Part shown: positions 2-32,208 of the stretch, one piece after another | Layout of the letters: each line of letters opens with the position of its first letter | Position numbering within the stretch: the stretch's first letter is position 1 | Virus record (IMG/VR): IMGVR_UViG_3300042549_003221 | Coordinates: 1 to 32,208 of that record | Strand: one strand, 5' to 3' | DNA length: 32,208 nt | Source: a virus | The notes under the pieces: model-generated | Told to the model about the DNA's origin: nothing | What the model saw: the letters and a program-made list of their open reading frames with translations, nothing else | Database searches by the model: none | Position numbers and translations under genes: made by a program

Positions 2-1048
2 ATCTCGACGCCCACGCCGGTCACGCCGACGTTCCGCGTGCTCGACATCCCGCCGTTGGTGGACGAGGACGCCTTCGTGCCGGGCTACTACATCGGCGCG
101 TGCTCGGCCGGCGGAGCTCGTTGGGGCGGCGCGGTGGTCTACGAGTCCCGCGACGGCGGCACGAACTACACGCAGGTCGCCACGCTCAACACGCAGTGCG
201 GCATGGGCACGCTGACCAGCTCGCTTGCGTCGGGCACGCCCGGCGATGGCATCGGCAGCGTGACCTACGACACAACCAACAGCTTCACGGTCGCCATCGA
301 CCGCGACAACGTGGTCCCGCTGGTCACGGTCACGACCGCATTTGTCGAGGCGGGCTGGAACTGGATGCTGGTCGAGAACGGTGCCAACTTCGAGATCCTC
401 GGCGCGCGCGACGTTGTCGACAACGGCGACGGCACGTTCACGTTCGACCACCTGCTGCGCGGCTTGCGAGGAACCTACGACAGCGCAGCGACCACCAAGG
501 CCGCAGGCAGCAAGGTGACGTTCCTCTACCAAGCGCGGCAGCTCGGCGCTGTGCAGTTCGTCCCGACCAACCTGAGCGCGGGAAGTTTGCCCACCACGAT
601 CGACATCAAGGTCGTGGCCGCTGGTCAGTCGATCGACGATGTGACGGCAGAGACGGTCACGCTCGACTGCTGGAACGCACGCCCGATGCCGGGCCGCATG
701 TTTGATACTGACCTGAACCTGAGCACGAACGACCGCACGTTCACGTTTGATCACTGGACGCGCCTTCAGTCTGTGCCAGGAAGTGGTGCTCCTTACCAAC
801 TCGACGAGAGTTACGAAGGCTACAAGGTCAACTTCTACGACCCGACTGGCGTCACGCTGCTGCGCACCAAGACGATCAGTGCACAGAACACGGGCAGCTC
901 GATGATCCGTGGCGCGCGCGAGTTCGTCTACACGGCAGCCGAGCAGACGGCGGACGGGTATACTCCGGGGCCAACGGAGACGTTCAAGGTCGAACGCTTC
1001 CAGCTCGGCGACTTCGGCGACGGTCGCACATGGATTGAGGACGTCTGA
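2..1048 (+). CDS. Host-specificity/tail-tip protein, C-terminal part (GTA gp15/Rcc01698-like), 5' truncated
   Basis: The frame is open from the window edge, so the N-terminal part of this gene lies outside the window; about 348 residues are visible. The visible part is rich in beta strands and holds a stretch LLRGLRGTYD, which resembles the conserved LLRG-R-GT segment of the C-terminal region of gene-transfer-agent and siphophage host-specificity proteins (Rcc01698-like). Proteins of this family sit at the distal tail tip and contact the host surface. The next gene starts on the last base of its stop codon (TGATG), so it heads or continues a tail operon. The assignment rests on motif memory and on gene order (tail-fibre-like gene directly after it), not on a search. 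A generic tail-tip or baseplate hub protein is the alternative. Confidence 0.7.
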   Translation: MSTPTPVTPTFRVLDIPPLVDEDAFVPGYYIGACSAGGARWGGAVVYESRDGGTNYTQVATLNTQCGMGTLTSSLASGTPGDGIGSVTYDTTNSFTVAIDRDNVVPLVTVTTAFVEAGWNWMLVENGANFEILGARDVVDNGDGTFTFDHLLRGLRGTYDSAATTKAAGSKVTFLYQARQLGAVQFVPTNLSAGSLPTTIDIKVVAAGQSIDDVTAETVTLDCWNARPMPGRMFDTDLNLSTNDRTFTFDHWTRLQSVPGSGAPYQLDESYEGYKVNFYDPTGVTLLRTKTISAQNTGSSMIRGAREFVYTAAEQTADGYTPGPTETFKVERFQLGDFGDGRTWIEDV

Positions 1049-8643: not shown

Positions 8644-10829
8644 TGTTCGCCTCTCCTCTCGATGCGGCGCTGCGATACGCAGCACGCGGCTGGCTGGTGT
8701 TCCCAGTCCGCGCTAACAAGCACCCGTTCACCCAACACGGCCACAAGGAAGCCACCAACGATCCCGCGCGTCTCGCCGCGTGGTGGGCGCAGTGGCCAGA
8801 TGCACAGGTCGGCGTCGATTGCGAGCGCAGCAGCCTCGCCGTCATCGACCTCGACTACGACCCGACCAAGTCGATTGACGGACCGGCCGTCTGGTCTGTG
8901 CTGCTGCAAGACCACGGCCGCGACCTGTGCGGCCTGATCGCCACGACGCCACGCGGCGGCCGTCACCTGTTCTACTCGCTGCCCAACCCGCCGGTCAGCT
9001 CGCGCGTCGGCGTGCGGCCTGGCGTCGACGTCCGCGCCGTCGGCGGCTACGTGGTCCTGCCGTCGCCTGCATCACCTGGCCGTGAGTGGCGCACGGGCGA
9101 CCCGTTCGACGTGGACAGCGACGGCGTCAGCGACATCGACCAGATGCCGGGTTGGGTGCGCGAACTGTGCGGCAGCCACCGTGGCGGCGAGAACTTTGGC
9201 GCGGAGTCCAGCGACGCCATGCCGTTGTCGGGCGCAGACGTTGCGTCGATCGAGGACGCGCTCAAGCACGTGGACCCGGACCCGCACGACTTGTGGCTGC
9301 AAGTCGGCATGGCGCTCAAGAGCACCGGCGCGAAGGACCAGGCCTACGAGATCTGGTGCGAGTGGTCGGCGCAGTCGGGCAAGTTCACGCCCAAGGACCA
9401 GCGCAGGCGGTGGAACTCGTTCAAGGAGTTCCGCTGGGACGGTTCCGAGATCACGCTCGGCACGCTGTTTCACCTGGCCCGAGACGGCGGCTGGATGCCC
9501 GGCGTGTTGCAGGAGCTGGCGGGCGACATCGAAGTCCCCGAGCCCGAGCCGGACTACGCGCCGCGGCAGCTCCAGAAGCGTCCGTTCCCGCGCAAGCTCC
9601 TCGACGTGCCCGGCATCATCGGCGAGCTGGTGTCGTGGATGCTGACGCAGTCGATCCGCAGGCAACCGTCGCTCTGCCTGGCGTCCGTGCTCGCGTGCAT
9701 GGGCGCTCTGATGGGTCGGCGCGTCCAGACCCGTGGCGGCCTGCGCACCAACCTCTACATGCTCGGCATCGCTGAGACGGCCAGCGGCAAGAACGCGTCC
9801 CTGCGTCTGCCGCAGCGGGCCTTCGCGCTCGCCGGCCTGAGCAACTGGATCGGCCCGAGCGAGTGGAAGTCCGACAGCGGCATCCGCTCCTCGCTGGTCG
9901 ATGAGCAGACCAGGTCGCACGTCTGCTTGATCGACGAGATGACCAAGTTTCTCCAGCAGGTGACCCACCCGAACGCGGGCGGTCACCAGCTCGGCATCAA
10001 GCGCACCTTGCTCGAGCTGTTCTCGTGCGCAGGCGACACCTGGCTCGCGGCCGCCTACGCGGACCGCCGCATCAACGCGCCGACGCCGCTGGAGGAGCCG
10101 CACCTGTGCTTCTACGGCACCGGCGTGCCGAGCGAGCTGTTCTCAAGCATGGACTCGGGCGCCATCCGTGACGGCTTCCTAAACCGTCTGCTGGTGTTCG
10201 TGTCCGATGACGCTCTCCCGCAACGGCAGACGGTAGACCGCGACGATCCGCCCGCCTACGTGCTCGAACGCCTGCGCGAACTGGAGCGGCTGACGCGTCG
10301 GCAAGGCAACCTGCACGGCGTCTGCCGCAAGGTGGCCTACCAGGAGGCCGCAGAATCGCTTCTGGGCTCGTTGGCGGACCGGAACGACGTTCGCATCATG
10401 GAACTGCGCAGGAGCGAACTGGCGGCCTTTGCGGACCTTTGGGCGCGGTTCACGGAGCACGTGGAGAAGCTGGCGCTGCTTCGCTCGGTCTGCCGCGACC
10501 CGTCCGACCGCATCAGCGTCGATGACGTCGAGTGGGCGGGCGAGCTCGCGTCCTGGTGCATCGAGCGCACCTGCGCCGAGGCGGCCGAGACCATGGCCGA
10601 CAACGCCGTCCAGGCCATGCAGAAGCGCGTGCTGCGGCTCGTCCGCGACGCTGGGCCCATGGGCATCACCATGGCCCAACTGAGCCGCAAGACCCAGTGG
10701 CTGCGTCGCAGCGAGCGTAAGGACGTGCTGGCCTCGCTCGTCGAAGGCGAAGAGGTCGTGACGCAGGAGACCGTGACGCTCGGACGCCGGAAGACCGTCC
10801 TGATCGCGCGCGACTTCCTCGCCCCTTGA
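8643..10829 (+). CDS. Primase-polymerase (prim-pol) / PriCT / DUF3987 replication protein
   Basis: A 728-residue multi-domain replication protein. Residues about 1-180 are a bifunctional primase/polymerase domain, with AARGWLVFPV near the start, the catalytic D69-L-D71, and TTPRGGRHLFY. Residues about 200-275 (IEDALKHVDPD...WLQVGMALKST) fit the PriCT domain. Residues about 310-640 fit DUF3987, a P-loop helicase-like domain with ETASGKN (378-384) as the degenerate Walker A. A C-terminal winged helix (about 655-720) probably contacts DNA. Such proteins prime and initiate phage and plasmid replication, often at sites next to their gene. The first iteron-like repeat overlaps its stop codon. Confidence 0.87.
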   Translation: MFASPLDAALRYAARGWLVFPVRANKHPFTQHGHKEATNDPARLAAWWAQWPDAQVGVDCERSSLAVIDLDYDPTKSIDGPAVWSVLLQDHGRDLCGLIATTPRGGRHLFYSLPNPPVSSRVGVRPGVDVRAVGGYVVLPSPASPGREWRTGDPFDVDSDGVSDIDQMPGWVRELCGSHRGGENFGAESSDAMPLSGADVASIEDALKHVDPDPHDLWLQVGMALKSTGAKDQAYEIWCEWSAQSGKFTPKDQRRRWNSFKEFRWDGSEITLGTLFHLARDGGWMPGVLQELAGDIEVPEPEPDYAPRQLQKRPFPRKLLDVPGIIGELVSWMLTQSIRRQPSLCLASVLACMGALMGRRVQTRGGLRTNLYMLGIAETASGKNASLRLPQRAFALAGLSNWIGPSEWKSDSGIRSSLVDEQTRSHVCLIDEMTKFLQQVTHPNAGGHQLGIKRTLLELFSCAGDTWLAAAYADRRINAPTPLEEPHLCFYGTGVPSELFSSMDSGAIRDGFLNRLLVFVSDDALPQRQTVDRDDPPAYVLERLRELERLTRRQGNLHGVCRKVAYQEAAESLLGSLADRNDVRIMELRRSELAAFADLWARFTEHVEKLALLRSVCRDPSDRISVDDVEWAGELASWCIERTCAEAAETMADNAVQAMQKRVLRLVRDAGPMGITMAQLSRKTQWLRRSERKDVLASLVEGEEVVTQETVTLGRRKTVLIARDFLAP

Positions 10830-23118: not shown

Positions 23119-24087
23119 ATGGCCGTTACTCTTCTCCAGTCCGCTCTGACTGCGGAAGCAAACGGTGAGTTCAAGAAGGCAGGCGTTCTGAAGACGTTTG
23201 CCGACAGCTCGCCGCTGCTCGCCGCTATGCCCATGCTGCCGATCCAAGGCAGCGCTTTCGCCTGGACGCGTCAAGCCTCGCTTGGCTCGGCAGGCTTCCG
23301 TTCCGTCAACGGTTCCTACTCGGAATCGGCAGGCACCGTTGAGACCCGCACCGTTGCGATGAAGATCATCGGCGGCGACCTCGACGTTGACGAGTTCTTG
23401 GTCCAGGCTCACGGCCCGGCCCACCGCGCGATCCAAGAGCAGGCGAAGGCCGCGCTCATCGCGCAGACGATCAGCTTCCAGATCATCAAGGGGTCGGTCG
23501 CTGGTGGTGGTGGCTCGACCGGTGACGCCAACGGCTTCGACGGCCTCCAGGTCCGTTACGGTGGCGGCTTCGGCTCCACGCCGGTCGTGGACGGCGGCGA
23601 GAACGCTGGCCAGATCTTCGCCAACGCTGGTGGCGGTGCGCTTTCGATGCGCTCGCTCGACGAGGCGATCCAGGCGGTCGAGAACCCGACGCACCTGCTG
23701 ATGGCCAAGAAGATGCGCGTCAACATCCAAGCCTTCCTGCGCGGCAGCTCGTCGGTGCAGATGGTCAAGGACGAGTTCGGCCGTCTTGTGACGACCTACA
23801 ACGGCCTGCCCATTCTCGACGCGGACGTGCTCGGCACGGTCAGCGGCCTGGAGCAGATCGGCTTCAACGAGAACAACGACAGCAGCTCGTCGATCTACTG
23901 CTTGTCGCTCACGGACATGGGTCTGTGCATGCCCACGGTCGGCGGTGTCCAGGTGCGTGACCTGGGCGAACAGAACGCCAAGGCGGTCCGTCGCACGCGC
24001 GTCGAGATGTATGCGAACATTGCAGACATCCACCCGCGTTGCGTGTCCCGCCTCTACGACATCAGCGACGCAGTCGCCATCGCCTGA
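23119..24087 (+). CDS. Major capsid protein
   Basis: A 322-residue protein following the scaffold gene. It starts with a helical N-arm (TLLQSALTAEANGEFKKAGVLKTFADSSPLL) and continues with a mixed fold of the HK97 type: an E-loop-like segment (SVNGSYSESAGTVETRTVAMKIIGGDLDVDEFLV), helices (HRAIQEQAKAALIAQTISFQIIKG) and a C-terminal strand region with RTRVEMYANIADIHPRCVSRLYDI. The pattern is that of phage major capsid proteins whose E-loop is followed by a GGD(L)-type strand. It is probably the most abundant protein of the virion. The assignment combines gene order and overall fold signals. Confidence 0.85.
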   Translation: MAVTLLQSALTAEANGEFKKAGVLKTFADSSPLLAAMPMLPIQGSAFAWTRQASLGSAGFRSVNGSYSESAGTVETRTVAMKIIGGDLDVDEFLVQAHGPAHRAIQEQAKAALIAQTISFQIIKGSVAGGGGSTGDANGFDGLQVRYGGGFGSTPVVDGGENAGQIFANAGGGALSMRSLDEAIQAVENPTHLLMAKKMRVNIQAFLRGSSSVQMVKDEFGRLVTTYNGLPILDADVLGTVSGLEQIGFNENNDSSSSIYCLSLTDMGLCMPTVGGVQVRDLGEQNAKAVRRTRVEMYANIADIHPRCVSRLYDISDAVAIA

Positions 24088-24646: not shown

Positions 24647-24666
24647 ACTTACACCAGGAGCACCAC

Positions 24667-27105
24667 GTGGCAGTTCGCAAGTTCATCCTGACCATCGGCC
24701 AGTCCAACGGCGGCACGAAAGCGGACTACGCGGCGTGGGGCGCGCTGCACAGCCAGATCTTTGTGGACGTCGAGAACGCAATCTCGACGTCGGAAGCGCA
24801 AGGTGCATACAACGACACCTACACGATCCCAGGCACGTGGCCTGAGTTCCCGACGTGCTCGCTGAAGGGCGCAGCCGTTGACAGCATTCGCTACCTGACG
24901 TTCTACAACCCGTGCGCAACGGGCATTGCTTACGTCACATATCCAGGCACAGCGCGTGTCACGGCGGTCGATAATCAGTTGAGCACGACAGCGTCAACTG
25001 GTCTGACGACTGCGCTTAAGTGGCAATACGATCCGACGGGCCGCACGCTTACACGCGAGCGCACTGGGACCACGCACACTGTTAGTGCCTGGGGAGGCAG
25101 TCTCTCCGCTGGAGCGGCTGACCAGCTTCTTGTTGCTCCTGCATTTGATCCGCCTCCTGTCATCGGCGAGGAAATCACCTACCCGATCCGCGCAGGCGTC
25201 AACAGTGCGTCTGGTAGTTACATCTGCATCGAGCCACGCTTGGGCGATGACTTCGGAACCGACGGCAGTTGGAACGGGTCGCTGGCGGGCATGCGCGTGC
25301 GTTGCACTGCAAGTGCAAGCGCAGGCAATGTCGGGCTTGTGCGCTATGTGAGCAGCATCACGTTGGACGGAGGCATTGCCAACGACGTTGCAGGAGCACC
25401 GCCAACGGTCAAGCTCACTTTCAGCGAAGCTCTGCCAAACAACCCGTCGAACAACGACACGTTCGTCATCGAGCCGCCGCCCGTTGGCGCGGTTGACGTT
25501 CCTTTCGAGAAGTGGGCTTACTTCCTGCCGTGGTCGCCCATCGAAGGCCGCGCTACCAAGCAAACGATCACATCGACGTCGGCAGCGTCTGGCACTGGCA
25601 GCTTTGTGGCGTTCACGGTTGCAGCAGGCCATGGCATCGTCGTAGGCCAATCCATCAATGTGATCGGTCCAGCGGTCCCGCCGAGCACGCCTGCACAGAC
25701 GACCTATCAAGGCACGCACTTCGTTGTCGAAGTCACCGCGACAACCATCACGCTAAACGTCGCCTACAGCATCGCGCTGAGTGTCCCGCACTACCTGCGC
25801 GTGATGGGCAAGGTCAATCCTTACCCGCCTGGCTTCAACTACCCGAACCACATCGCCACGCCGCAGTTCTACCAGCCGTTCCTTGGCGAGAGCTATCTCT
25901 ACGGCGCAGGCTCTTCGTTCGCGTTGACCGCGCGTGCGGCATATCACACGGGCCTTGCCAACCGGTTGCAGGAGAAGGTCGGCGACATCATCTACGTCGT
26001 CAACCTTGCGGTCGACGGCACCTACCTTGCGCAGCAGGACCTCTATCTTGACGCTGCTATCCCGGTGCCGTCGGTCGGATGGTTCGACCCCAACCAGCAC
26101 ACGAGCTGGAGCGCAGGCGACCGCAACAACTTGTTCCAGCGACTGGTCGACACGCTGGACGCGGCCAAGCTCGCGGCGCAGCGCGAAGGCAACACGCTGG
26201 AGTGCTTGGGCGTGTTCTTCGTGCAAGGCGAAGGCGACGGCTCGTTCCTCGATCAATCCGAGAGGTACTATCGCAACCTGACCACGTTCAAGGCCCAGGT
26301 GCGCGGCGCGATCAAGGACGCGGGCCTCTACGCAGGCACCGAGTCGACGATCCCCTGGGTGCAGCCGCTCATCACCACGACGCCGTGGCAGTTCTCGGCG
26401 ACCATCAACTCGGCCATCCAACTGTGCGCAGCGGAAGACCGCTACATGCGCACGGTGCAGATGGACGACGCCACGAAGATCGTCGGCGACACGGCGCACT
26501 ATGACGCGGCAGGCATCACGCTGCTCGAATACCGCGCCTTCCAGCTCTGGCGCAACATCACCGAGCAGCTCGACGTTGGCGCATACGAGAGCGCGCTGGT
26601 GGTCGAGACGGGCACGGGCAGTGCGACCGCCAATAGCTACTGCACCGAGTTGTTCGCCACGACCTACTTCCAGAACCAAGGCGGCAACACGGCGTGGGAC
26701 GCGGCGGACAAGATCCAGCGCCAGCGTGCTCTGATGCGCGCCACGTTCTGGATCGACCAGACCTACGGCGACCGCTTCGTTGGCTACCGCCAGGTGAACA
26801 CGCAGGCGCTAGAGTTCCCGCGCTCGCTGGCATACGACCGGCAGGGCTACGAGATCGAAGGCGTGCCGGTGGCTCTGCAACGCGCCACGGCCGAGATCGC
26901 GCGCCGTTACCTTGAGGACTCGACGCAGTTCCTGGCCGACACGGCCGCGGGATCCAACGTCGTTGCGGACTCGATCACGGTCGGCCCGATCTCGATCAAC
27001 AAGACCTACGGCGGCGGCAAGGACACGGCCAAGAAGTTCGTGATTGTGGACCGGCTGTTCAAGGTCGCGGGCCTCATCGACAACTCGATCTGGGCCGACC
27101 GATGA
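24667..27105 (+). CDS. SGNH-esterase domain fused to DnaT-like head-tail adaptor
   Basis: An 812-residue protein starting at GTG, seven bases after AGGAG. Residues about 1-640 form a hydrolase region of the SGNH/sialate-esterase type: ILTIGQSNGG with Ser13 in GQSN, VQGEGD (519-524) and D608-T-A-H611-YDAAG, fitting the Ser, QGE-D and DxxH blocks that form the active site. Insertions of beta-rich sequence separate the blocks. Residues about 643-812 match the phage DnaT-like family (ALVVETGTGSATANSY, TQALEFPRSLAYDRQGYEIEGVP, VGPISINKTYGG), which are head-tail adaptor proteins usually about 170 residues long and separate genes. The fusion puts an esterase-like domain at the neck of the virion. 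The adaptor lies at the expected place in gene order. Confidence 0.75.
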   Translation: MAVRKFILTIGQSNGGTKADYAAWGALHSQIFVDVENAISTSEAQGAYNDTYTIPGTWPEFPTCSLKGAAVDSIRYLTFYNPCATGIAYVTYPGTARVTAVDNQLSTTASTGLTTALKWQYDPTGRTLTRERTGTTHTVSAWGGSLSAGAADQLLVAPAFDPPPVIGEEITYPIRAGVNSASGSYICIEPRLGDDFGTDGSWNGSLAGMRVRCTASASAGNVGLVRYVSSITLDGGIANDVAGAPPTVKLTFSEALPNNPSNNDTFVIEPPPVGAVDVPFEKWAYFLPWSPIEGRATKQTITSTSAASGTGSFVAFTVAAGHGIVVGQSINVIGPAVPPSTPAQTTYQGTHFVVEVTATTITLNVAYSIALSVPHYLRVMGKVNPYPPGFNYPNHIATPQFYQPFLGESYLYGAGSSFALTARAAYHTGLANRLQEKVGDIIYVVNLAVDGTYLAQQDLYLDAAIPVPSVGWFDPNQHTSWSAGDRNNLFQRLVDTLDAAKLAAQREGNTLECLGVFFVQGEGDGSFLDQSERYYRNLTTFKAQVRGAIKDAGLYAGTESTIPWVQPLITTTPWQFSATINSAIQLCAAEDRYMRTVQMDDATKIVGDTAHYDAAGITLLEYRAFQLWRNITEQLDVGAYESALVVETGTGSATANSYCTELFATTYFQNQGGNTAWDAADKIQRQRALMRATFWIDQTYGDRFVGYRQVNTQALEFPRSLAYDRQGYEIEGVPVALQRATAEIARRYLEDSTQFLADTAAGSNVVADSITVGPISINKTYGGGKDTAKKFVIVDRLFKVAGLIDNSIWADR

Positions 27106-27470
27106 CAGTGGACGCTGCGCAGATCCTGGCCGATGTCTACTCGGCGACCGCTGAGGTCGGGCGCACCGTCACCGTCACGACCTACTCGGACACCTACAGC
27201 ACGACCACCGGCAAGACCACGAGGACGGCGACCGACCACAGCGTGCTGGCGTCGCCGCTCTACTCGCAGACGCGCGGCGTCACGGCTGACTCGCAGCCGC
27301 GAGGCTCAGCGCAGTTGCTGATCCCGGCCAGCGGCCTCACGTTCACGTTGCAGGTTGGTGCAAAGGTCACGGTCGGATCGAAGATCTACACGGTGACGGT
27401 GGTTGGCCGGCTGGAGATCGGCACGACGCTGCTGGCCTACGAGCTCACGTTGCAGGAGGGCGCGCCGTGA
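27102..27470 (+). CDS. Head-closure (stopper)-like neck protein
   Basis: A 122-residue, beta-rich protein (VGRTVTVTTYSDTYS, then KVTVGSKIYTVTVVGRLEIGTTLLAYELTLQ). The C-terminal half resembles stopper proteins, in which a small barrel ends in a strand such as YELTLQ. It follows the adaptor with an ATGA overlap and precedes the gp10-like protein, the standard place for a head-closure protein. Named from order and fold character only. Confidence 0.55.
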   Translation: MTVDAAQILADVYSATAEVGRTVTVTTYSDTYSTTTGKTTRTATDHSVLASPLYSQTRGVTADSQPRGSAQLLIPASGLTFTLQVGAKVTVGSKIYTVTVVGRLEIGTTLLAYELTLQEGAP

Positions 27471-27958
27471 CCAACTCCGACAACGCGCGCTCGTTCCAGT
27501 TCCAGCTCGACAAGTTCATGTCAGACCTGGTGCCAGAAGCGGTGGTCCAGGTGCACGCCAAGATCACGCTGGACCTGCTCTACTCGCTGGTCAAGAAGTC
27601 GCCCGTCGGCTTCCCACCGAGCTGGAAGAACCCAGCGCCCAAGGGCTACGTCGGCGGCCAGTTCCGCAGCTTCTGGCAAGCCAACCTTTCGGGCAGCGCG
27701 ACGGTTGCGCAGAAGACAAACGACTCGCGCAAGTACGGCGAGGATCCCTCCTCGAGGCAGACCGAAGCAGCAAACGCGGAGCTTGGTAAACTAGCTCCTT
27801 TCAGCGTGAGCTACATCGTCAACGGACTCCCATACGGCGACCGCCTGAACTCTGGCTGGTCGAGGCAAGCGCCCGCTGGCTTCATCGAACTGTCGATCGC
27901 TGAGGTCAAGAGCAAGACCGAAGCGGAGATCAGGACGCTGGAGGCCGAAGGTGGCTAG
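27467..27958 (+). CDS. Neck/tail-completion protein (HK97 gp10-like)
   Basis: A 163-residue protein starting at GTG (GTGA overlap). It has an N-terminal helix (FQFQLDKFMSDLVPEAVVQVHAKITLDLLYSLVKKSPV), followed by P-GGQFRSFWQ, as in HK97 gp10-like proteins where a long helix is followed by a GxLR/SW-type strand. The C-terminal helical tail ends in acidic residues. These proteins connect neck and tail. The next gene starts eight bases before its stop. Confidence 0.6.
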   Translation: MTNSDNARSFQFQLDKFMSDLVPEAVVQVHAKITLDLLYSLVKKSPVGFPPSWKNPAPKGYVGGQFRSFWQANLSGSATVAQKTNDSRKYGEDPSSRQTEAANAELGKLAPFSVSYIVNGLPYGDRLNSGWSRQAPAGFIELSIAEVKSKTEAEIRTLEAEGG

Positions 27959-28379
27959 CCTCATCGCCACGGCCGCTGGCCTGATCCGTGACCGCTTCGC
28001 GGCGCAGATCACGACGCCCGAGACGCTGACCACGGTGCACGACAACGCGCCCAACCAGACGATCCCCTCGTCTGGTCGTTGGTGCCGCCTGTCGCTGCGC
28101 ATGGGCCTCCAAGAGCAGCTTACCGTCGGCGGCCTGGGCCAAGGGCACTTCCGCACGACGGGCGTGGCTCTCATCCAGCTCTTCGAGCCAGTCGGCGCCG
28201 GTGACGGCACGCAGCTCGAGCTCGTTGACGCGATCGTTGACGCCTTCCGCGGAGTGACGCTCGCCGGTCCGCCGCCGATCCACTTCGACCCACCCTACGT
28301 GTCGGCTCCGCCGACGCTCGACGATGGCCTCTGGCTTCTCGTCGTGACCATCCCTTTCCGAATCGAGGAGCAGGTCTGA
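27951..28379 (+). CDS. Tail terminator protein (DUF4128-like)
   Basis: A 142-residue protein starting at GTG. The order LIRDRFAAQI, NAPNQTIPSSGRWCRLSLRMG, GHFRTTGVALIQLFEPVGAGDG and VVTIPFRIEEQ matches the DUF4128 tail-terminator pattern (R..VRFGD..Q..GG...R..G...V.iF.P.G.G...). Tail terminators form a hexamer at the end of the tail tube and stop its growth. Position directly before the tube gene supports this. Confidence 0.75.
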   Translation: MASLIATAAGLIRDRFAAQITTPETLTTVHDNAPNQTIPSSGRWCRLSLRMGLQEQLTVGGLGQGHFRTTGVALIQLFEPVGAGDGTQLELVDAIVDAFRGVTLAGPPPIHFDPPYVSAPPTLDDGLWLLVVTIPFRIEEQV

Positions 28380-30020: not shown

Positions 30021-30343
30021 AGCGAGAATACATCCGGGGACTTGCCGAGTGGCGCAGGCAAAGAGGCAAGCCCGAACCAGACCACCCGGCCATGCAGGCC
30101 GCAGAACTCGACCCTAAACACACCGACCTATGGGACGCCTTCATCGACCTCAAGCAGAGCGCAAGCGTGGGATGGTCTTCGGACCCGATCTCGCCCGACT
30201 CCGTGCTTGCCTGGTGTCGGTTGCATGGCATTCCGCGATGGCGGTGGCGCACGTTCTGGGCGGTGGTGCATCACTTGGACGGCGTGGCGCGTCACGCACT
30301 GAAGGAACGCAGCAATGACGACCATCGCAGCACTGAAGCTTGA
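29981..30343 (+). CDS. Tail assembly chaperone, frameshift extension (lambda T-like)
   Basis: After the -1 shift translation resumes at CTG (29981) and adds 120 residues (LSSLLRLALIPQEEREYIRGL...), giving a 262-residue fusion. The extension is helical at first and has WRRQRGKPEP, WRLHGIPRWRWRTFWAVVHHLDG-like Trp/Arg-rich stretches near the end. There is no convincing start codon with a ribosome binding site for it alone, so production by frameshift is the best explanation. The end overlaps the start of the tape-measure gene by 29 bases. The fusion would recruit tail tube protein to the tape measure, as lambda gpGT does. Confidence 0.75.
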   Translation: MSSLLRLALIPQEEREYIRGLAEWRRQRGKPEPDHPAMQAAELDPKHTDLWDAFIDLKQSASVGWSSDPISPDSVLAWCRLHGIPRWRWRTFWAVVHHLDGVARHALKERSNDDHRSTEA

Positions 30344-31715
30344 GCTGAATGCCCAGCAGATGCGGCAGGAGACTCAAGGGGCTAAGACCGACCTCGACGG
30401 CGTCAGCAAGTCGGCAGAGGCCGCAGGCCGCGCCGTCGATGGCATGGGCCGCCAAGTCGATGCAGCGGCCCGCACGGTCGGCACTTCGACCGAAGCAGCA
30501 GCAGCCAAGACCAAGAAGTTCCAGGACGGCGTGGCGGCGCTGGGCGAGGTCACGCAGATCAATCAGCGCGTCCGCCTGCTCGGCGAGGAAGTGCGCAACC
30601 TGGGCTCCGGCTTCAGCAGCGCAGGCACCGTGGCCAGCGTGTTCGCGCAGTCGTTGGTGGACGTTGCGCAGATCAGTAGCATGGCAGGTGGCAAATTTGG
30701 CAACCTGGTCGGGCTGCTGCGCGCCAACCCGTTGCTGGCTGCCGCTGGCGTGCTGTCAGCTATCGCCACCGCCATGGCTCTATTCGGCGGCGAGACGGAC
30801 GAGACCAACAACAAGCTGCGCGAGCAGATCAAGCTCCAGCAGGAGCTGCGCCAGGCGAGCGTCGATCTAGCGCTCCAGATCCAGCGCAACGCCGACTTGC
30901 AGCGCATCGGATTCAGGATTGATGAGAAGGAGCAAGAGACGCTGCGCGCTCGCCGTCTGGCGGAGGTTGCCAGCGGATTGGCTGGAAAGCCTGGGTTCCA
31001 GACCTTTGAAGACCTGACGAGCCTCACCGGACTGAGCAAGCAAGAGCTGAAAGACCTCGCTCCTCCTGGGAGCACTGTTCGAGACCCGAACGACCGACGA
31101 GTTGTGCAGACGTTCCCGCGCGAGCTCGGCCTGACCAACGAAGCCGCGCGCGAGATCGTCCTTCGCGTTGCGCAGATCTTCCGCAACCAGGCGGTCTTCT
31201 CGCCCAACCCAACGGCGCCCGTGCAAGGCGTCGTGCAGGCCGGGCAAGCCGGAGTCTCGAACGGTGGCTACGGCTTCGGCGGCTTCGGCGTGTTGCAGCC
31301 TGGCCAGATTGCGACGCTGCGCGATCGATTGAACCCGCCCAACCTCGCGTCAGACTACAGCGTCGTGAGCCAAGAGCAGATCTTTAACGTCATCGCAAAG
31401 CGGCGCGACGATGAGATCCGCAAGCTGACTGAGCAACTGAACCAGCTCAAGTCGCTCGGGCAGGACGTTGGCACGGCCATCGGTGGTGCTTTCTTCAGCA
31501 TCGTCAACGGCGCGGCCAACGCCCGCCAAGCTCTGGCTGGCCTGCTCCAGCAGTTCGTGGCAATCGCGCAGCAGCGCGCGATCCAGGGCATCGCCAACAG
31601 CCTTGGCAATGCGTTTGGAGCTTCGACTGCGCAGCAGATCAGCAATGTGCAATCTGGCGGCGTCAATGTCCCAGCACAGCCAGGTGGCGGCCTAGCTGGT
31701 GGAGGTATCGGCTAA
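30315..31715 (+). CDS. Tape measure protein
   Basis: A 466-residue protein with GAAGGA eight bases before its ATG. The N-terminal half is a long helical, Ala/Gln-rich region (KLELNAQQMRQETQGAKTDLDGVSKSAEAAGR...) followed by hydrophobic segments (FGNLVGLLRANPLLAAAGVLSAIATAMALFGG) and more helices; the C-terminus is Gly/Gln-rich. These features and its place after the tail chaperone pair identify it. At about 1.5 angstrom per residue, as known for other siphophages, it would set a short tail. Its stop overlaps the start of the tail-tip gene (TAATG). Confidence 0.8.
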   Translation: MTTIAALKLELNAQQMRQETQGAKTDLDGVSKSAEAAGRAVDGMGRQVDAAARTVGTSTEAAAAKTKKFQDGVAALGEVTQINQRVRLLGEEVRNLGSGFSSAGTVASVFAQSLVDVAQISSMAGGKFGNLVGLLRANPLLAAAGVLSAIATAMALFGGETDETNNKLREQIKLQQELRQASVDLALQIQRNADLQRIGFRIDEKEQETLRARRLAEVASGLAGKPGFQTFEDLTSLTGLSKQELKDLAPPGSTVRDPNDRRVVQTFPRELGLTNEAAREIVLRVAQIFRNQAVFSPNPTAPVQGVVQAGQAGVSNGGYGFGGFGVLQPGQIATLRDRLNPPNLASDYSVVSQEQIFNVIAKRRDDEIRKLTEQLNQLKSLGQDVGTAIGGAFFSIVNGAANARQALAGLLQQFVAIAQQRAIQGIANSLGNAFGASTAQQISNVQSGGVNVPAQPGGGLAGGGIG

Positions 31716-32208
31716 TGGCATTCCACAACGTCCAACTCAACCCCGACATCAGCTACGGCGCGACTGGCGGCCCGGCGTTCGGCACCACGATTCAAACGAC
31801 GGCGAGCGGCCACGAGTATCGCATCTCGCGCGCATCGCGGGCTCGGCGTCGCTACCAGTTCGACAAGCTGCTGCTTGAGCCTGCGCAATGGGGCGCGCTG
31901 ATTGAGTTTTGGATGGCGCGCCGTGGGCACTTGCACGGCTTCCGGTTTAAGGACTGGAGCGACTGGTCGAGCGCGAGCGATGGCGTCAGCACGCCGACCA
32001 ACCTCGACCAAGTGCTCGGCACTGGCAACGGCACCGAGACGCAGTTCCAGCTCGTCAAGACCTACGATGACGGCGGCCTGAACCCTTACACCGAGTCGAT
32101 CACGCTGCCGGTTGCGGGCACGTTGGTCGTTGCGGTCGCTGGTTCCGCGACCACTAGCTACACGGTCACCAACCCTGGCGGGCTGATCACGTTTGCCAGC
32201 GCGCCGGG
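31715..32208 (+). CDS. DUF2460 tail-tip protein (GTA gp12-like), 3' truncated
   Basis: The window ends inside this gene; 164 residues are visible. The N-terminus FHNVQLNPDISYGATGGPAFGTTIQTTASGHEYRISR followed by ARRRYQF and WGALIEFWMARRGHLHGFRFKDWSDW fits DUF2460 (TIGR02217): conserved ggP.F.T.I....G.E.R, then F...R.G...GFRFkDw.D. In gene transfer agents and related siphophages it is the first of four tail-tip genes. The last of those is the host-specificity protein whose end opens this window, so the missing pieces lie between the two window edges. Confidence 0.85.
   Translation, partial: MAFHNVQLNPDISYGATGGPAFGTTIQTTASGHEYRISRASRARRRYQFDKLLLEPAQWGALIEFWMARRGHLHGFRFKDWSDWSSASDGVSTPTNLDQVLGTGNGTETQFQLVKTYDDGGLNPYTESITLPVAGTLVVAVAGSATTSYTVTNPGGLITFASAP

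Follow-up and report, generated by a model that had tools for sequence, protein, structure and literature searches.

The stretch analysed here, which we call the window, is the 32,208-nt IMG/VR record IMGVR_UViG_3300042549_003221. On its forward strand, positions 24667-27105 form an 812-codon open reading frame, with a GTG start and without internal stop, in which a carbohydrate-esterase-like SGNH domain is joined to a head-tail adaptor. The initial annotation had proposed such a joining of an SGNH domain and a DnaT-like adaptor in one gene, and the open frame, a Pfam SASA match and matches to DnaT_2 and PHROG 477 bear it out. The gene and its neighbours are arranged as follows.

A fusion gene among head and neck genes

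23119-24087, forward strand: major capsid protein, upstream (PHROG 212, E 1e-55)
24656-24660, forward strand: ribosome-binding site AGGAG, 6 nt upstream of the GTG, read from the sequence
24667-27105, forward strand: fusion gene, SGNH carbohydrate-esterase-like domain plus head-tail adaptor (single open frame, 812 aa)
24667-24846, forward strand: SGNH block I with GQSN, residues 1-60 (block I alignment; model pLDDT 80-92 for residues 1-30); the codon of the nucleophile Ser13 is 24703-24705
24847-25815, forward strand: residues 61-383, an insert rich in beta strands within the SGNH fold (from the secondary structure of the model, most of it confident)
25816-26586, forward strand: remainder of the SGNH core, residues 384-640 (SASA match, A4 and A6 alignments, conserved Ser/Gly/Asp/His), holding the NPYPPGFNYP signature, Gly451, QGEGD (26224-26238) and DTAH (26488-26499)
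26587-27105, forward strand: head-tail adaptor Ad1 (DnaT_2), C-terminal residues 641-812 (PF20557, PHROG 477, tblastn)
27102-27470, forward strand: head closure Hc1, next gene (PHROG 161, E 1.3e-5), overlapping the fusion gene by ATGA
27467-28379, forward strand: Neck1/tail completion and tail terminator, downstream (PHROG 169, E 8e-26; PHROG 179, E 9e-18)

The protein opens straight into SGNH block I and ends in the adaptor, and no fibre or chaperone domain was recognised in it by Pfam and PHROG profile searches. Its SGNH domain is discontinuous, block I being separated from residues 384-640 by the beta-rich insert of about 320 residues. The identity of the adaptor part is well established by comparison with profiles. 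Indeed, residues 643-799 match Pfam DnaT_2 (PF20557; profile positions 2-151 of 168, E 1.1e-25), PHROG 477, 'head-tail adaptor Ad1', matches the protein at E 2.5e-31, and tblastn finds YuA gp63, R7M gp29 and JG054 gp10. Known Ad1 members measure about 170-177 aa, in agreement with the figure of about 170 residues given initially for stand-alone adaptors, against 812 for the window protein; the short length is a habit of the known members and not a feature of the profile.

The gene order in the window is scaffold, capsid, a PHROG 427 gene, the fusion, Hc1, Neck1 and tail terminator, then PHROG 290/tail-tube and tail assembly chaperone genes. Since capsid, head closure, neck and tail genes surround it, the adaptor part is correctly placed. 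Further along, positions 30315-31715 encode a tape-measure-like protein of 466 aa, with a weak PHROG match; by rule of thumb, this length would correspond to a siphovirus tail of only about 70 nm, short enough to bring the neck fairly near the cell. Rcc01698-like C-terminal and DUF2460 tail genes, a gene-transfer-agent-like tail tip set, lie at both ends of the window (38-1048 and 31715-32206), which makes it probable that the contig represents part of a genome or a circularly permuted one.

Fold and active site of the SGNH module

The Pfam SASA profile (PF03629) matches residues 480-617 at E 2.6e-6, with 27.6 bits against a curated cut-off of 24.8, and its score reaches 42 bits in relatives. 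A search of PDB sequences with the window protein as a single query gave no match. Structure prediction was more informative about this region. A first AlphaFold2 model, built with six close relatives, had a pLDDT of 32 and was discarded; the model built from a 41-row alignment has a pLDDT of 76 and a pTM of 0.71, and its N-terminal region adopts the flavodoxin-like SGNH fold, as had been anticipated. In Foldseek, this model is matched best in the PDB by SASA/CE-type acetylesterases (2apj, XAC1771, NanS, 1zmb and SIAE), with 2apj at E 6.7e-7 and an rmsd of 2.4-3.3 in the fold superposition; the cyanopodophage tailspike 9vyh is a lower-ranked match.

The motif blocks lie in the sequence where the initial annotation had put them: GQSN with Ser13, QGEGD at residues 520-524 and DTAH at 608-611. 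Both the nucleophile serine of GQSN and the histidine of the C-terminal DxxH motif are present in the window. A chance motif match is excluded, because the motif residues are conserved over 49 non-redundant cores and solved structures of carbohydrate acetylesterases match the model from the deep alignment. Among the 46 lineages with an intact N-terminus, 38 keep the serine and all 38 have the histidine, and every A, C or D lineage (see below) in which the N-terminus is present retains both. The eight lineages devoid of the serine are all podoviral and of type B, and four of them lack the histidine as well; the two residues are retained or lost jointly (Fisher p 4e-4, computed on lineages without correction for relatedness). 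Asp608 is less constant than either. The eight are L028, L064, L048, L051, L062, L099, L106 and L107, and the fusion is retained in each.

From this Ser-His pattern across lineages, the window domain is predicted to be catalytic, and should be so as far as its residues tell, while the type B lineages without the serine have likely become pseudoenzymes, on more than one occasion. The loss of the nucleophile in eight podoviral lineages means that the domain is no ordinary esterase in some members and that catalysis is not family-wide. The SGNH core is under purifying selection, with an omega of 0.08-0.19 against its closest relatives. As for the insert, its residues 295-382 (25549-25812) form a cassette that is swapped for a clearly different version in L003 and L004. 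We observed that this other version resembles the one in L012 and L018, a mosaicism inside the insert itself.

One SGNH module on several unrelated adaptors

The family search began from the SGNH core alone (A3, A5), in two scans of the metagenomic viral contigs of IMG/VR that gave about 70 contigs; removal of near-copies left 49 non-redundant SGNH cores. The search was seeded from, and confirmed against, fused members, so that very distant stand-alone relatives may be missed. A further C-terminal domain follows the SGNH core in 49 of 49, wherever the 3′ end is present, and in 48 of them it is a recognised connector, of three unrelated kinds:

Type A, 14 members (the window and 13 further non-redundant relatives): DnaT_2/Ad1
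Type B, 28 members: PHROG 394, homologous to the BPP-1 bbp14 podovirus adaptor
Type C, 6 members: lambda gpW-like (PHROG 2545/118; NCBIfam head-tail joining just under the cut-off)
Type D, 1 member (L017): C-terminal domain without family assignment

The polarity is constant, SGNH first and adaptor second, in every fusion, and the length ahead of the core in relatives ranges from about 265 to 1036 aa. Hc1 directly follows the fusion gene in all 14 type A loci, and the type B fusion precedes a PHROG 376/bbp13-like tail gene. The type A fusion comes after the capsid genes, while that of type C sits between terL and portal, which is also where the lambda gpW gene lies. Because these two slots differ, the SGNH module tracks the adaptor and not one genome position. 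The oddity pointed out by the initial annotation is therefore real as a fusion but not a one-off: it belongs to a modular family, in which the C-terminal partner is one of three unrelated adaptors or, once, an unassigned domain.

The single type D domain (L017, positions 8766-9251, on the same contig as L011) stands on a 70%-identical SGNH module and is followed by a Mu gpG-like gene. It has neither a convincing Pfam or PHROG match nor a significant GenBank match. Its position before the Mu gpG-like gene suggests that it is probably an undescribed fourth adaptor type, and we left it out of the proven adaptors. A candidate adaptor-less member, L098, was rejected as a frameshifted contig, and L109-L112 were left out as distant generic matches with a core score below 51 and without an adaptor. 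We also noticed that L065 (PQ492659.1, Limnohabitans phage DC33) is classed in the filamentous Inoviridae, yet encodes an adaptor of the BPP-1 type, with a large tail-like gene after it; the taxonomic label of the record seems mistaken.

The search for the same fusion in phage genomes that the initial annotation had suggested thus succeeded within IMG/VR, with the 13 further type A relatives, but not in GenBank, where tblastn with the N-terminal part found no relative among the phage records tested. Scans of GTDB genomes by exact peptide patterns of the SGNH core likewise returned none. In Vibrio phage ALK and JG054, extension of the tblastn alignments upstream of the adaptor was rejected, as it enters neighbouring frames and the upstream genes have no SASA match. 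The best structural match in BFVD is A0A516LTA4, an unnamed viral protein of 1084 aa (E 4.5e-48, TM 0.59 by query length), and another unnamed viral protein, A0A516LMG1 (761+ aa), matches the window structure at E 3.9e-27. Judging by the models, both are likely uncharacterised relatives present in UniProt, and the SGNH-adaptor architecture is probably already in the protein databases, uncharacterised.

Exchange of the module can be followed on the SGNH tree, which calls for about 10 changes of adaptor type (minimum 3). Three clades are mixed with strong support: {L076 A, L084/L080/L092 C} at 100/100, {L033 A, L061 B, L081/L029/L087 A} at 100/98 and {L019 A, L017 D, window group A} at 100/98. 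Close pairs tell the same from the other side. Between the window and L076, identity is 95-99% for scaffold, capsid and Hc1 and 82% for the adaptor, yet only 43% for the SGNH module; L020 and L084 share 96-97% in terL and portal and 92% in the gpW part, but 51% in the SGNH module. Conversely, the SGNH modules of L084 and L076 are 62% alike while their adaptors are unrelated. As read from the sequences, this exchange of SGNH modules between near-identical phages is how receptor-binding parts diversify, and the resemblance gives reason to place the SGNH domain at the host interface.

A proposed esterase crown on the neck and its alternatives

In tailed phages, tail fibres and spikes get most of the credit for recognising the host and processing glycans. 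Here, we consider it likely that the neck of these phages bears a covalently attached ring of domains that act as glycan O-acetylesterases or bind glycans, and that these phages probably work the sugars of the host surface from the neck and not from tail fibres alone; the position in the virion and the catalysis are what we infer. Where phages have been characterised, the adaptor forms a ring of 12-fold symmetry beneath the portal (PMC10721106; PMC9509320), as is the case for lambda gpW (PMC10721106), and in SU10 and T7 this ring docks fibres, a fibre-dock domain being found in SU10, T7 and KP32 (PMC9509320). The gene product would form the Ad1 ring under the portal, each subunit bearing at its N-terminus a complete SASA-type SGNH domain with its large beta insert, so that each virion would display at the neck a crown of up to 12 covalent esterase domains, presumably turned outward. 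Acetylated glycans of the host, in capsule, O-antigen or exopolysaccharide, could be bound by this crown, and members with an intact Ser-His pair, such as the one in the window, would also strip O-acetyl groups from them. The esterase would then be built into the dock itself, replacing or supplementing the separate esterase fibres that dock on the same ring elsewhere. A podovirus neck lies near the cell. Because a siphovirus neck is far from the cell surface, that of the window phage may reach only a thick capsule or exopolysaccharide, or act in the first capture, before the tail engages.

The SGNH domain might alternatively be a glycan-binding or structural collar module, in which the fold is kept but not necessarily the catalysis; appendages built from it would serve to catch the host or to support the neck. 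The type B lineages that have lost the serine, half of them with the histidine, and nonetheless retain domain and fusion are in line with this, as is the wide variation of the region before the core. Moreover, the esterase-like fibres of phage DEV form a collar surrounding the HT-adaptor, and the virions that carry them had no LPS hydrolase activity when assayed (PMC10925440). However, the joint retention or loss of Ser and His, and their presence in all A, C and D lineages with a preserved N-terminus, point to selection for catalysis in most members, the window included, and we regard this alternative as unlikely.

It is still less probable that the esterase is cleaved off or is active before assembly, the virion receiving the adaptor only and the fusion serving stoichiometry, folding or a role at the lysis stage. 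Maturation proteases are present in some of these phages, but the linkers are short, with no conservation from one adaptor type to the next, and no shared cleavage motif is evident in the junctions seen. An internal start giving a separate adaptor was sought at the junction across relatives and none is conserved; in addition, the swapping reminiscent of receptor proteins suggests an exposed interaction with the host. A mere accident of gene order, by which a tail-fibre or esterase gene beside the adaptor became fused without functional meaning, seems very improbable. The slot before Ad1 in cultured relatives does often hold large variable proteins, such as R7M gp28, but the recurrence with three unrelated adaptors, in two genome slots (terL-fusion-portal and capsid-fusion-connector) and with the same polarity, contradicts it. 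Finally, the initial annotation had named a sequencing error joining two genes as a possible refutation; such an error, in sequencing or assembly, is itself refuted, as nothing speaks for it (the L098 frameshifts are breaks, not joins) and at least 13 other non-redundant relatives carry the fusion uninterrupted. It is unbroken, for instance, in L001, L015, L016, L018, L019 and L076, and in relatives whose SGNH and adaptor parts are 43-98% identical to those of the window.

The esterase crown could also be a distinct class of virion enzyme, a covalent O-acetylesterase module moving between unrelated adaptors of long- and short-tailed phages and forming a main, fast-changing element of host recognition, at the neck and not at the tail tip. 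We hold this broader proposal as a serious possibility only, and lean slightly against it. If the connector ring does carry an exchangeable esterase in siphoviruses and podoviruses, pipelines that search tail fibres would miss receptor-processing parts, and such genes would be annotated only as 'adaptor' or 'hypothetical'. The family also offers a clear case of repeated fusion of one module to proteins that are unrelated yet sit at the same virion position, and the near-identical pairs (window/L076 and L020/L084) make a role in host range directly testable.

Comparison with known systems

No published covalent fusion of SGNH and head-tail adaptor was found in the open-access literature; as far as our searches show, the parts are known and their combination is undescribed, non-covalent esterase fibres docked at the adaptor being known. 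The stand-alone Ad1/DnaT_2 proteins YuA gp63, R7M gp29 and JG054 gp10 are homologous to the C-terminal 170 residues, with up to about 41% identity, and their genes, like that of the window, precede head closure and neck genes. They consist of the adaptor only, whereas 640 esterase-like residues stand ahead of it in the window. In Alteromonas phage R7M (L010, 2541-6005), the 1154-aa gp28, with PKD and bacterial Ig domains, sits just before the stand-alone Ad1 gene, which it overlaps, and may be a neck appendage of its own at this same position. Similarly, BPP-1 bbp14 (223 aa) and lambda gpW (68 aa; PMC10721106), the adaptor types that end the type B and type C fusions, are stand-alone proteins.

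The SASA/SGNH acetylesterases (2apj At4g34215, XAC1771, NanS and SIAE) have the fold and the GQSN, QGExD and DxxH motifs in common with the window. They are, however, cellular enzymes, while in the window the beta insert interrupts the fold after block I, and the whole is attached to a ring protein of the virion. Several phages have SGNH tail fibres that are demonstrated esterases or deacetylases (PMC13123978, PMC9569702). In these tail-fibre deacetylases (G7C gp63.1, Possum gp66 and Klebsiella prophage RBPs; PMC9569702, PMC13123978) the SGNH module is likewise exchanged between phages, but they are separate fibre proteins of the virion, whereas the SGNH domain described here is covalently linked to the head-tail adaptor.

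Two other systems are comparable. KP32 tail tubular protein A is a podovirus adaptor with a reported hydrolytic activity besides its structural role (PMC5440376); an SGNH domain is not described in it, and the KP32 and T7 adaptors carry a fibre-dock domain (PMC9509320). The long tail fibre gp53 of DEV likewise places a carbohydrate-esterase-like domain around the head-tail adaptor, but gp53 is a trimeric fibre in its own right, docking to form a 15-fold collar (PMC10925440), whereas the domain encoded in the window is fused to the adaptor itself.
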